Source: a bacterium | Lineage (GTDB): Bacteria > Patescibacteriota > Minisyncoccia > Phycocordibacterales > UBA12079 | Direction: 5' to 3' | NCBI GenBank assembly: GCA_030641525.1 | Contig: DAOWHH010000002.1 | Location: 1-50,557, forward strand | DNA length: 50,557 nucleotides | In this document: in pieces, positions 41,583 through 45,730 of the stretch | Numbering within the stretch: position 1 is the stretch's first letter | How the letters are laid out: each line of letters opens with the position of its first letter | Position numbers and translations under genes: made by a program | The notes under the pieces: generated by a model | The model's database searches: none | What the model was told of the DNA's origin: nothing | Seen by the model: only the letters and a program-made list of their open reading frames with translations

Positions 41583-41620
41583 ATTGAAAAATAGTGATTT
41601 TTGGGATATAAATAGTGTTA

Positions 41621-42358
41621 ATGATAACTAAAAAAAATAAAGGACATTTGCATTTATTAACTCAAAATATACGAAAAATATCAGAAATTTTTTCATCTAT
41701 GGGTTTTGAAATTGCCAGTGGTCCAGAATTAGAAAATGAATATTATAATTTTGAAGCTTTAAATTTTCCCAAAGATCATCCTGCTAGAGATATGCAAGAT
41801 ACTTTTTGGTTAAAGCCAGATAATCTAAAAAAACTTTTAAGAACTCAAACTTCAGATGTACAAATAAGATATATGGAAAAAAACCAAGCTCCCTTTGCTA
41901 TTATTGTTCCTGGTAAAGTTTTTAGAAATGAAGCTACTGATACTACTCATGAAGCTCAATTTTATCAATGTGAAGGTTTAGTGGTGGGGGAGAATATAAC
42001 TTTAGCTAATCTGAAAGGGACTCTTGAGACTTTTTTGAAAAAACTTTTTGGAGATGATGTAATCATCCGACTTCGTCCTGGATATTTTCCATTTGTGGAA
42101 CCAGGGGTAGAAGTGGATATGATTTGTTTTAAATGCAAAGGGGATGGTTGCCCTTCTTGTTCACATAGTGGATGGATTGAAATTTTAGGAGCAGGGATGG
42201 TTCATCCAAATGTTTTGAATACAGTAGGAATTGATTCAAGAAAATATCAAGGATTTGCTTTTGGAGTAGGAATAGATAGGGTCATAATGCTAAAACATGG
42301 AGTGGATGATGTTAGAAGATTTTATTCGGGAGATTTAAGGTTAGTGAATCAATTTTAG
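41621..42358 (+). CDS. pheS: phenylalanyl-tRNA synthetase alpha subunit, short form without N-terminal coiled coil
   Basis: [106 protein letters not shown]. Confidence 0.95.
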
Positions 42359-42371
42359 GAAATAATTATAT

Positions 42372-42677
42372 ATGAAGCAATATCAAGAACAAGTTAATAA
42401 ATGGTTTAAAGAAAAGAAATGGGATTATTGGGATCCTTTAGCTATCATTACTAGGTTATTTGAGGAATGTGGTGAATTGGCTAGAGAAGTTAATCATGTA
42501 TACGGTCCAAAACAAAAAAAATTAGAAGAAAAAAAGAAAAATATTGAAGATGAAATAGGTGATATTATTTATACTTTAATTTGTTTTGCTAATTCTCATG
42601 ATATAGACCTAGAAGAAGCGACTCAAAAAAGTATTGATAAAGTTGCTGATAGAGATAAAGATAGATATAAAAAATAA
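42372..42677 (+). CDS. MazG-like nucleotide pyrophosphohydrolase
   Basis: LAIITRLFEECGELAREVNHVYG...IEDEIGDIIYTLICFANSHDIDLEEA. Confidence 0.85.
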   Translation: MKQYQEQVNKWFKEKKWDYWDPLAIITRLFEECGELAREVNHVYGPKQKKLEEKKKNIEDEIGDIIYTLICFANSHDIDLEEATQKSIDKVADRDKDRYKK

Positions 42678-43171
42678 TGAAAATTGATAACAAGACTAGG
42701 GTATATATAGACGGTGCGAATTTATATAATGCTTCAAGATTTTTTGATTGGAAGTTGGATTATAAAAAACTTTATGTTTGGCTTAGTGAGAATTTTAAAA
42801 CAGAAAAGATTTATTTGTTCATAGGTTTTGTTGAAGAAAACAAAGATTTATATGATTTTTTAGAAAAAATTGGATACAAAATAGTTTTTAAAAAAACTTC
42901 CAAATCAAAAGGACAGATAAAAGGTAATTGTGATGCTGAGTTAGTTTTAAAATCAGCAGAGGATATTATTAGAAAAGATATGAAAAAAATAGTTTTAGTT
43001 TCGAGTGATGGAGATTTTTCTTGTTTGTTAGAATTTGCTAAGAATGAGAATAAAGAAATTTTTGTTGTTTCTCCTTCTCAAAAACTTTCTTATTTAATAA
43101 GAAGATTGTATGTAAAAACTGTTTATTTAAAAGATTTGAAAGAATTATTAAAGAGAAAAGGCCCCCGGTAG
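42677..43171 (+). CDS. NYN domain (LabA/DUF88-like) protein
   Basis: TRVYIDGANLYNASR; KGNCDAELVLKSAEDI; KKIVLVSSDGDFSCLLEFAK. Confidence 0.9.
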   Translation: MKIDNKTRVYIDGANLYNASRFFDWKLDYKKLYVWLSENFKTEKIYLFIGFVEENKDLYDFLEKIGYKIVFKKTSKSKGQIKGNCDAELVLKSAEDIIRKDMKKIVLVSSDGDFSCLLEFAKNENKEIFVVSPSQKLSYLIRRLYVKTVYLKDLKELLKRKGPR

Positions 43172-43240: not shown

Positions 43241-45730
43241 ATGCAATTTTCATATAAATGGATACAAGAATATTTTGAAGATCCTAATCCTACCCTAGTC
43301 CGACCAGACGAGTTTAGGACGGACGGACAAGGACCTTTACCTGAGATTAAAGACTTGGTGGAAATTTTAACATTTCATGCTTTTGAGATAGAAGGAGTAA
43401 ACGGAGATTTAATTGATATTGATGTGCTTCCTAATAGAGCTCATGATTGTTTGTGTTATGAGGGGATTGCTAAAGAAATTTCGGTTTTAACTGGTTTGAA
43501 ATTAAAAGAGAATAAAATTGAAGTTAAAACAGAGTCAGGATTAAAATCAGAAGATCATATTTCACTTGAAGTTGAAGACTCTGTTTTGGTACCTCGGGCT
43601 ACTAAAAGATTGGTTCAAAATGTAAAAATAGAAACTTCTCCTGATTGGTTGAGGAAAAAATTAGAATCAATAGGGCAGAAATCAATTAATAATGTGGTGG
43701 ATATTACTAATTATGTAATGTGGGAGACTGGACAACCAGTGCATGCTTTTGATTTTGATAAAATTGCAGGAGATCCTAAAAAAGAATTTTATATTAGAAA
43801 TGCTAAAAAAGGGGAGAAAATTACTACATTGGATGGACAAGAATTTGATTTGGATGAAAGTATTATTGTTATCAGTGATAAAGATAAAGCTTTAGATATT
43901 GCTGGGATTAAAGGTGGGATAGTTTCAGGAATAGATGAGAATACTCAAAATATTGTTTTATCAATTTGTAATTTTAATCAAACCAATATAAGAAAAACTT
44001 CAAGGAAATTGGGTTTGAGAACAGATGCTTCTGTGCGATTTGAGAATGGGGTTTCTCCTGATAAAGTTGGGGAAGCTATGGAAAGATTAACTCAATTAAT
44101 AATTGAAATTACAGGAGGAAAAGCTTCTGAAGATATTTTGGATGTATATCCTAGAAAAGCCAATCTGTATAAGGTAGGTGTTTCCACTTCAGAAGTTAAT
44201 AGATTATTAGGATTGGATTTTTCAGATAAAGATATGGAAGATATTTTTAATCGTTTTGGTTTTGATTTTGAAAAAGTAAATCCTATTGATAAAGTTTTGG
44301 AATTGGCTCCAATTGCTGAAGGTAAAAGATATAGGAATGGAGCTTCTGTGACATATGATGCTCCAGAGGAATATGATTGTTCATCTTTTACTGCTTATCT
44401 TTTTGTTCAAGCAGGAATTGGAATTCCACGAATTTCGGTGGATCAATATGTTTGGGGAGAAGAAATTTTAGATTCAGATTTGAAAGCAGGGGATTTGGTA
44501 TTCTTTAATACAGAGAAAGGAAAGATTCATACTGAAACTATAGAATTTTTAAAAGGAACGAAAGTTGAAAAAGGAATAGATCATGTTGCTTTATATTTAG
44601 GCGATGGAAAGATAATTCATGCTTCCGATAAAAATGAAGAAGATGGTGAGATTTTTATTGAAGAATTAAAAGAATCAAAATTCTTTGAAAATGTTGTTGG
44701 TTATAGAAGAATGTCTGGTAATTCAGAAAGGTATGTCGTAAGTATTCCTCATGAAAGATTAGATTTGAGAATTAAAGAAGACTTGATTGAAGAAATAGGG
44801 AGGGTTTATGGTTATAGGAATATTGAACCTGAACTGGTTAATCCTAATTTTTCAAACGAACAAGGAAAAATATTTAAACCAAAAATAAATAAGGAATTTT
44901 ATTACATAAATAAAATTAGAAATATTTTGGTTGAGGCAGGTTTTTCTGAAGTTTATACTTATACTTTTGGAGATAAAGGGAATGTTGAAGTACAGAAACC
45001 TTTAGCTTCTAATTTGGGATTTTTGAGAACTAATTTGAGTGATGGAGTTCAAAAATCTTTAGAATTGAATATTAAAAATGCTCCTGTTTTAGGTTTGGAT
45101 GAAATTAAGATTTTTGAGATTGGAAAGGTTTTTCCTGATATTGATGGGGAATATTTGTCTATTTCCTTAGGAATAGCTTCTTTGAAAAATAAAAAGAAGA
45201 AAAATTCTTTAGAAGAAGATGTTTTGCAAGATGTTTTGAGTAAGTTAATAGAAGAATTAGGTTTGTCTGAATTTGATATTAGGAATAGTGAATTAGTAAA
45301 AGAAATTCTCAAACCTAATAGATCCTTTGAATTTCATTTAGATAAATTAATAGAAGAATTACCAGAACCTTATTCTTATGAAGATGTTTTAAAAATGGAT
45401 TCTAATGATCCTAAATTTTCAGTCGTGCAAGATGAAAAGATTTTTAAATCTATATCTAATTATCCTTTTATGTTGAGAGATATATCAGTTTTTGTTCCAA
45501 ATGAATTTAGTGAAAACGATTTGTTAGAAATAATAAAGGAAAATGCTGGGGATTTGTTGGTGCAAAGTAAATTATTTGATATTTATTCACCAGAAGGAGG
45601 GGATAAAACTTCTTATGCTTTTAATTTGGTTTTTCAATCACAAGAAAAAACTTTAACGGATGAAGAAATAAATGAGGTGATGGATAAAATTACTTCTCAA
45701 ATTCAATCTAAAAATTGGGAGGTTAGATAA
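43241..45730 (+). CDS. pheT: phenylalanyl-tRNA synthetase beta subunit with inserted NlpC/P60 domain, lacking the N-terminal EMAP/OB tRNA-binding domain
   Basis: B3/4: NNVVDITNYVMWETGQPVHAFDFDKI; B5 split: LYKVGVSTSEVNRLLGLDFSDKDMEDIFNRFGFDFEKV ... RYVVSIPHERLDLRIKEDLIEEIGRVYGYRNIEP; FDX-ACB at C-terminus; NlpC/P60 block in between. Confidence 0.95.
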   Translation: MQFSYKWIQEYFEDPNPTLVRPDEFRTDGQGPLPEIKDLVEILTFHAFEIEGVNGDLIDIDVLPNRAHDCLCYEGIAKEISVLTGLKLKENKIEVKTESGLKSEDHISLEVEDSVLVPRATKRLVQNVKIETSPDWLRKKLESIGQKSINNVVDITNYVMWETGQPVHAFDFDKIAGDPKKEFYIRNAKKGEKITTLDGQEFDLDESIIVISDKDKALDIAGIKGGIVSGIDENTQNIVLSICNFNQTNIRKTSRKLGLRTDASVRFENGVSPDKVGEAMERLTQLIIEITGGKASEDILDVYPRKANLYKVGVSTSEVNRLLGLDFSDKDMEDIFNRFGFDFEKVNPIDKVLELAPIAEGKRYRNGASVTYDAPEEYDCSSFTAYLFVQAGIGIPRISVDQYVWGEEILDSDLKAGDLVFFNTEKGKIHTETIEFLKGTKVEKGIDHVALYLGDGKIIHASDKNEEDGEIFIEELKESKFFENVVGYRRMSGNSERYVVSIPHERLDLRIKEDLIEEIGRVYGYRNIEPELVNPNFSNEQGKIFKPKINKEFYYINKIRNILVEAGFSEVYTYTFGDKGNVEVQKPLASNLGFLRTNLSDGVQKSLELNIKNAPVLGLDEIKIFEIGKVFPDIDGEYLSISLGIASLKNKKKKNSLEEDVLQDVLSKLIEELGLSEFDIRNSELVKEILKPNRSFEFHLDKLIEELPEPYSYEDVLKMDSNDPKFSVVQDEKIFKSISNYPFMLRDISVFVPNEFSENDLLEIIKENAGDLLVQSKLFDIYSPEGGDKTSYAFNLVFQSQEKTLTDEEINEVMDKITSQIQSKNWEVR
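43298..43324 (+). repeat. imperfect in-frame palindrome in the pheT N-terminal region
   Basis: GTCCGACC-AGACGAGTTTA-GGACGGAC, encoding part of the extra LVRPDEFRTDGQG. Confidence 0.6.
44306..44728 (+). other. NlpC/P60 domain insertion inside pheT
   Basis: EEYDCSSFTAYLFVQAGIGIPRISVDQY ... LKAGDLVFFN ... IDHVALYLGDGKIIHAS; Cys codon 44378-44380, His codons 44582-44584 and 44618-44620. Confidence 0.9.

Follow-up and report, generated by a model that had tools for sequence, protein, structure and literature searches.

Editing domains that occur both inside a synthetase and as freestanding proteins are familiar from the AlaRS/AlaX and ProRS INS/ProXp-YbaK systems. Here we describe an NlpC/P60-type domain embedded in the β subunit (PheT) of phenylalanyl-tRNA synthetase (PheRS), a universal enzyme and one of the best-studied synthetases. 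The pheT gene in question lies in a 50,557-nucleotide stretch of DNA from a member of the Patescibacteria (the whole stretch, hereafter called the window), which is contig C18 of a genome bin of 584,555 bases in 18 contigs. The insert is very probably an active enzyme coupled to PheRS in Patescibacteria, and the coupling is supported by insertion at the same site of the B5 domain across classes, by freestanding forms with B5 remnants lying beside PheRS genes and by a C39-like partner.

The NlpC/P60 superfamily spans peptidases, amidases, transglutaminases and acyltransferases (PMC3142127). B5 is described as a PheRS-β domain of unknown function, uninvolved in aminoacylation and capable of binding DNA, possibly also mRNA (PMC10880493). 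Regarding the editing of mischarged products, Glu334 of Thermus thermophilus (Tth) PheRS is reported to read the hydroxyl of Tyr (PMC3275996), and the B2 domain contributes according to Roy and Ibba (2006), as cited in a later paper that also reports its absence from many PheTs of the candidate phyla radiation (PMC5370408). A review of 2010 knew monomeric PheRS from mitochondria only (PMC3275996). Searches of the open PMC subset, which leaves subscription papers and preprints outside, found no description of an NlpC/P60 domain in PheT.

An NlpC/P60 Domain within B5 of PheT

The architecture of the window PheT follows the Pfam order B3_4, B5 split by NLPC_P60, CLM and FDX-ACB, with the following features (window positions; aa, amino acids):

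43241..45730, + strand: pheT, β subunit of phenylalanine-tRNA ligase carrying the NlpC/P60 insert; 829 aa, no internal stop
43589..44116, + strand: B3/4 editing domain (Pfam B3_4), residues 117-292, from Pfam
44174..44275, + strand: B5, first half, residues 312-345, from alignment with insert-less PheTs
44276..44719, + strand: NlpC/P60 (C40-type) insert, residues ~346-493, from the Pfam core (44321-44707) and alignment
44378..44380, + strand: codon of Cys380, predicted catalytic nucleophile, from alignment of inserts and freestanding forms
44582..44584, + strand: codon of His448, predicted catalytic base, from the same alignment
44618..44620, + strand: codon of His460, third polar residue, from the same alignment
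44720..44830, + strand: B5, second half, residues 494-530, from a Pfam B5 match at 492-525 and alignment
44879..45343, + strand: CLM (B6/7) domain, residues 547-701, from Pfam
45455..45724, + strand: FDX-ACB (B8) anticodon-binding domain, residues 739-828, from Pfam
41615..42358, + strand: pheS, catalytic α subunit, core only, 247 aa (PF01409, E 8e-98)

The whole protein is recognized by NCBIfam as bacterial PheT (TIGR00472 pheT_bact, 423.5 bits vs a cut-off of 402.65), and the insert as NLPC_P60 (PF00877) over residues 361-489, with an E value of 1.9e-18 and 66.8 bits vs a cut-off of 23. An initial annotation, made from the window alone, had proposed an NlpC/P60 domain interrupting B5 of PheT; the family match and the single frame in which the alignment splits B5 bear out both elements of that proposal. 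The insertion point is the turn between the helix '...RFGFDFEKV' and the strand 'RYVVSIPHERLDL' of B5, where insert-less PheTs have 0-14 residues vs about 121-164 in the aligned insert-bearing proteins. Relatives of the insert in the PDB are NlpC/P60 hydrolases (7cfl, E 3e-15; E 8e-28 with a profile), and searches of Pfam and NCBIfam returned no enzyme family other than NlpC/P60 and no homology to a known editing domain; a papain-like fold is thus predicted from these relatives of solved structure. The window insert is the sole NlpC/P60 match in the genome bin and has a GC content (0.321) similar to that of the rest of pheT (0.316 and 0.273). A search of PADLOC-DB, which covers anti-phage defence, gave no match for PheT, the freestanding or short NlpC proteins described below, or the C39-like protein.

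The putative triad C380-H448-H460 shows a Cys, a His and a polar third residue in the canonical, non-permuted order. Residues were counted in 50 insert-bearing PheTs from the window's order and other orders of its class and in eight from other classes, leaving out one row (L236) in a wrong reading frame. Every PheT insert (50/50 and 8/8) and every freestanding form (13/13) has Cys380 and His448, while the position of His460 is occupied by His in 49/50 and 6/8 inserts (55/58 in total) and by Tyr or Asp elsewhere, with Gln in two of the 13 freestanding forms. The intact triad of the initial annotation, whose numbering agrees with ours, is therefore found conserved in relatives carrying the same insert. 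A few sequences have Tyr, Asp or Gln as the third residue, which would fit a catalytically idle insert serving in structure (a role that the initial annotation had also contemplated) or in tRNA docking; given the invariant Cys/His pair, the strong purifying selection documented below and the tolerance of the superfamily for exchange of the third residue (PMC3142127), we regard this as very unlikely.

Distribution and Evolution of the Insert

A profile built from 29 inserts finds matches in 98 of 397 genomes of the window's order, and in 69 of these 397 (by count of the match list) the domain lies inside a frame of 756-841 residues that comprises PheT plus insert. Insert-bearing frames in other orders of the class have 694-860 residues, and a search of the phylum, performed on a sample of 380 genomes, found eight such frames of 929-970 residues in other classes, all with the insert at the same site of B5; the sole one of these run through Pfam (L234) carries a B2-type tRNA_bind domain. 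Beyond Patescibacteria we covered 14 control genomes, a pattern-limited scan of contigs, viral contigs and the PDB; the viral contigs yielded generic phage NlpC matches only and no PheT.

The insert is under purifying selection. Its dN/dS is about 0.1-0.22, near that of the rest of PheT in five close pairs with measurable dS, and its mean pairwise distance (0.48) compares with 0.46 for B3/4 and 0.63 for CLM. Distances of the insert and the PheT backbone are correlated (Mantel r 0.72, with none of 2000 permutations as high). Because of this correlation, the low dN/dS, the invariant Cys/His and the recurrence among genomes, we conclude that the insert has been passed down together with PheT and maintained as an enzyme. 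The window's genome bin is fragmented into 18 contigs, and an assembly chimera or misread gene could in principle produce such an architecture; its recurrence at one site in dozens of separate genomes, together with the correlated distances, makes this explanation practically impossible.

On a PheT tree built from the alignment minus the insert columns, the insert's presence requires 14 changes vs 29 in shuffled data, and well-supported branches force at least five changes. Two histories fit this tree equally: an old insertion that was lost repeatedly, or gain at a single site a few times over. Short NlpC proteins without B5 (141-169 residues) are spread across the class; taken as outgroup, they branch outside the domains linked to PheT, and they are the plausible donor of the insert.

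Freestanding Forms and Monomeric PheRS

In 13 genomes the same NlpC domain is found in a separate protein of 191-254 residues (~220 aa) with B5 remnants on both sides, the freestanding or FREESTANDING forms. Their C-terminal B5 half is significant as a group (best stretches with E about 2e-5 against a profile of insert-less B5), whereas the N-terminal half is shorter and its match weak. The freestanding forms are nested among the PheT inserts in the NlpC tree, and the approximately unbiased (AU) test rejects a single clade for either type (p 0.002 for freestanding forms, p 6e-5 for PheT inserts); the module has therefore switched between the embedded and the freestanding state more than once. 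The remnants of B5 make it probable that the freestanding forms were excised from PheT.

The PheRS of 10 of these 13 genomes is a monomeric single frame of 383-414 residues combining a PheS core with FDX-ACB (domain content from Pfam on one member), the best PDB match of which is human mitochondrial PheRS. In all 10 the freestanding gene adjoins that of monomeric PheRS: in seven it follows immediately downstream in the same orientation, its start overlapping the preceding stop or separated from it by 3 bases, and in three it is divergent. The eleventh genome, G112, has a 408-aa mini-PheT with B5, CLM and FDX-ACB and no B3/4 (L217:2493-3719), its freestanding B5-NlpC gene (L073) being unlinked to PheRS. 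PheRS thus lacks B3/B4 in 11 of the 13 genomes, ten with the monomer and one with mini-PheT; the remaining genomes, G145 and G185, carry an ordinary insert-less PheT elsewhere. In one family, monomeric PheRS plus B5-NlpC has replaced pheS-pheT in place: the order glycosyltransferase - pheS - pheT(insert) - gyrB in G239 corresponds to glycosyltransferase - monomeric PheRS - B5-NlpC - gyrB in G173 and G262 (gyrB and the glycosyltransferase being named from their sequences).

These arrangements bear on the idea that the C40 enzyme, with or without a C39-like partner, is a regulatory or maturation protease cleaving a protein partner or PheT itself. The peptidase families involved, the papain fold and the C39-like partner genes are all compatible with it, yet no conserved substrate gene is seen and processing of PheT would make no sense for freestanding forms beside a monomeric PheRS, so that we consider the protease quite unlikely. 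Self-processing, raised in the initial annotation, is unlikely on the same grounds, and self-cleavage of PheT was rejected in view of the freestanding forms, which contain no PheT.

Many Patescibacteria genomes have no PheRS other than the mitochondria-like monomer of ~380 aa (L064:2970-4118, L067:1202-2341, L227:1660-2811 and others), more than a dozen of them lacking any NlpC module. A diverged NlpC/P60 family of ~200 aa (MEYRAVGNRCAV...; L076-L080, L236, L243, L246) has possible B5-like flanks and no PheRS linkage; its members L076-L080 (Type II) were considered as relatives of the B5-NlpC forms and rejected, the flanks being non-significant as a group.

Short NlpC Operons and a C39-like Partner

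Six genomes of one family, belonging to another order, have a short NlpC gene devoid of B5 directly upstream of monomeric PheRS and a C39-like gene downstream; most junctions of these operons overlap by a few bases. Of the 29 genomes from other orders that carry the more distant, mostly short NlpC relatives, 9 (in 3 of ~15 families, and including such operons) have one no farther than about 2 kb from PheRS, the chance expectation being about 0.2 (estimated for a 700-kb genome). The C39-like protein is a cysteine peptidase of family PF13529, which all 19 aligned members match, with Cys24 and His126 invariant. Of 29 insert-bearing pheT loci, 12 have its gene in their 1.5-kb flanks, vs none of 39 insert-less loci (Fisher p 7e-6). 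Among genomes having any PF13529 protein, it adjoins PheRS or the module in 20 of the 24 with the module vs 0 of the 15 lacking the close form of the module (p 1.5e-7). Both p-values are too small because related genomes were treated as independent, although several families are involved nonetheless; at some loci the ends of contigs conceal neighbouring genes.

The presence of two papain-fold enzymes beside PheRS could be accounted for by acyl transfer, in which the C40 and C39-like proteins would use the activated phenylalanyl group of Phe-tRNA or Phe-AMP to make or remodel an amide or ester product instead of proofreading. The superfamily does include acyltransferases and transglutaminases (PMC3142127), and two C39-like proteins weakly match BtrH_N, a family of acyltransferase type. 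However, no gene for an acceptor or product recurs consistently, the PheRS concerned is the only, housekeeping PheRS and the genome of the window itself has no C39-like gene, which makes such a reaction unlikely.

In another genome of the window's genus (G003) the C39-like gene lies directly downstream of pheT. Small C39-like genes (L005:3977-4513, L259:1775-2530 and others) are found beside PheRS only with the NlpC module. Beside the NlpC-PheRS operons there is also a gene for a small acidic protein of ~100-136 aa (L258:4375-4686, L227:3296-3601, L231:3211-3621), which in G478 sits between pheS and an insert-bearing pheT.

In the window, MazG-type and NYN-domain genes occupy the space between pheS and pheT (42372-43171, + strand), and two genes of equal sizes are found there in G003 (L273). 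The N-terminal coiled coil of the window PheS is missing.

Possible Function of the PheRS-coupled Module

The strongest evidence for function comes from the freestanding forms, the monomeric-PheRS operons and the C39-like partner, all of them beyond the reach of the initial annotation, and we infer that the insert acts on something that PheRS makes or holds. There is about an even chance that Patescibacteria possess a hitherto undescribed PheRS-coupled step performed by a C40 enzyme (embedded in PheT, freestanding with remnants of B5, or short), often with a C39-like protein, on aminoacyl-tRNA-Phe or another PheRS product. Ester hydrolysis, amide hydrolysis and acyl transfer are all chemically possible, since papain-fold enzymes pass through an acyl-thioester. 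We place ester hydrolysis first because Phe-tRNA-Phe is the product common to all PheRS forms, and tentatively predict that the module hydrolyses the aminoacyl ester on tRNA-Phe, in additional proofreading or deacylation. Of the roles listed in the initial annotation, one related to editing would agree with this prediction, and one linked to the cell wall keeps some probability.

Under this proposal, the module would remove misacylated or otherwise unwanted aminoacyl groups from tRNA-Phe, in cis as part of PheT and in trans as a separate protein, and B5 would dock it on either tRNA or PheRS. His448 would activate and His460 orient Cys380 for its attack on the ester carbonyl; tRNA would then be released and the aminoacyl-thioester formed on Cys380 would be resolved by water.

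Proofreading is favoured by the B3/B4-less PheRS of the 11 genomes discussed above and by the window PheT itself, in which Pfam finds no B2/EMAP-type tRNA-binding domain (PF01588) and both editing glutamates are lost. In the numbering of Tth PheRS β, its B3/4 domain retains the equivalents of Thr249, Asn250 and His261 (T156, N157 and H168), whereas Glu323 is replaced by Gly230 and Glu334 by Ser241. All five Tth editing residues are kept in 23 of the 50 insert-bearing PheTs. A coordinated change in B4 from LAIAG/LESANF to LDIAG/LSVCNF, that is Glu334 to Ser, often with Glu323 to Gly, is present in 11 of the 50 and in one insert-less PheT; the altered motifs suggest a possible shift in editing specificity.

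Several observations weigh against ester hydrolysis on tRNA-Phe. To our knowledge, NlpC/P60 enzymes of known substrate mostly cut amides such as gamma-D-Glu-mDAP and none acts on tRNA esters, and the active-site motifs of the insert still resemble those of cell-wall enzymes. The equivalents of His261 and Glu334 are kept in most insert-bearing PheTs, and Glu loss is not associated with the insert (11/50 insert-bearing vs 4/39 insert-less, p 0.17). At least 13 genomes have monomeric PheRS yet no NlpC module, so that the module is not required by the missing B3/B4; the requirement for a C39-like second enzyme is left unexplained, and an AlphaFold model from two sequences (window and L032) reached a pLDDT of 41.5. 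The insert as a general replacement of B3/B4 was rejected, since most insert-bearing PheTs keep their editing residues and many monomeric-PheRS genomes are without the module.

The nearest solved relatives of the insert are wall hydrolases and the general C40 motifs are kept; an attached hydrolase of the YkfC type, acting on murein or other peptides in the cytosol to supply amino acids or to link wall turnover with translation, would accommodate this. A cytosolic NlpC/P60 recycling enzyme is known in Chlamydia (PMC9928106), and at some loci of other classes the first gene downstream of an insert-bearing pheT encodes an L,D-transpeptidase. Such a hydrolase leaves the repeated PheRS linkage, the B5 site and the B5 remnants of freestanding forms unexplained, however, and the usual LPR/Q motif residues are lost in the KNPS subgroup; we consider it unlikely.

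The transpeptidase genes downstream of pheT are of the YkuD type at L268:5588-7291 (from Pfam) and L271:3046-4647 (by reading of the sequence), and genes of similar size follow pheT at L266, L267, L270 and L272.

Comparison with Known Systems

If true, PheRS-coupled C40 would be the first known papain-fold enzyme in aminoacyl-tRNA quality control or Phe-tRNA-dependent chemistry. That the module is kept beside PheRS even after the loss of PheT points to some reaction tied to phenylalanine charging in a large share of bacterial diversity, and its function bears on how bacteria with monomeric PheRS, devoid of B3/B4, exclude Tyr from Phe codons. The freestanding versions are small and easy to express, with the C39-like protein as a named partner.

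The window protein resembles bacterial PheT in its B3/4, B5, CLM and FDX-ACB domains and in having pheS upstream, and differs by the missing B2 and by the enzyme of ~145 residues within B5. Within PF00877 (MEROPS C40) the insert, well above the family cut-off, belongs with the P60-like canonical branch (PDB 7cfl, CwlO, MepS/Spr, YkfC), sharing the Cys-His-polar order of the triad and the DCS, PRxSxxQ and HVxxYxGxxxxIHA motifs. Unlike these canonical enzymes, it has neither signal peptide nor SH3 domain, has DCSS in place of DCSG and is embedded in, or lies beside, PheRS; in the window's group, a longer loop with an invariant Asp-x-Pro precedes the Cys. Cytosolic YkfC of Bacillus and Chlamydia (PMC9928106) is likewise a C40 enzyme with Cys-His-His, whereas the insert is tied to PheRS and Bacillus YkfC carries SH3b domains. 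The monomeric PheRS is similar to that of mitochondria (PMC3275996) in combining a PheS core with B8/FDX-ACB in ~380 aa, although in Patescibacteria it is the bacterial PheRS and has an NlpC partner gene. Finally, like AlaX and ProXp, the NlpC module exists both within a synthetase and as a small protein of its own; unlike them, it is by sequence a papain-like Cys enzyme of non-homologous origin that lies beside the synthetase gene and keeps remnants of B5.
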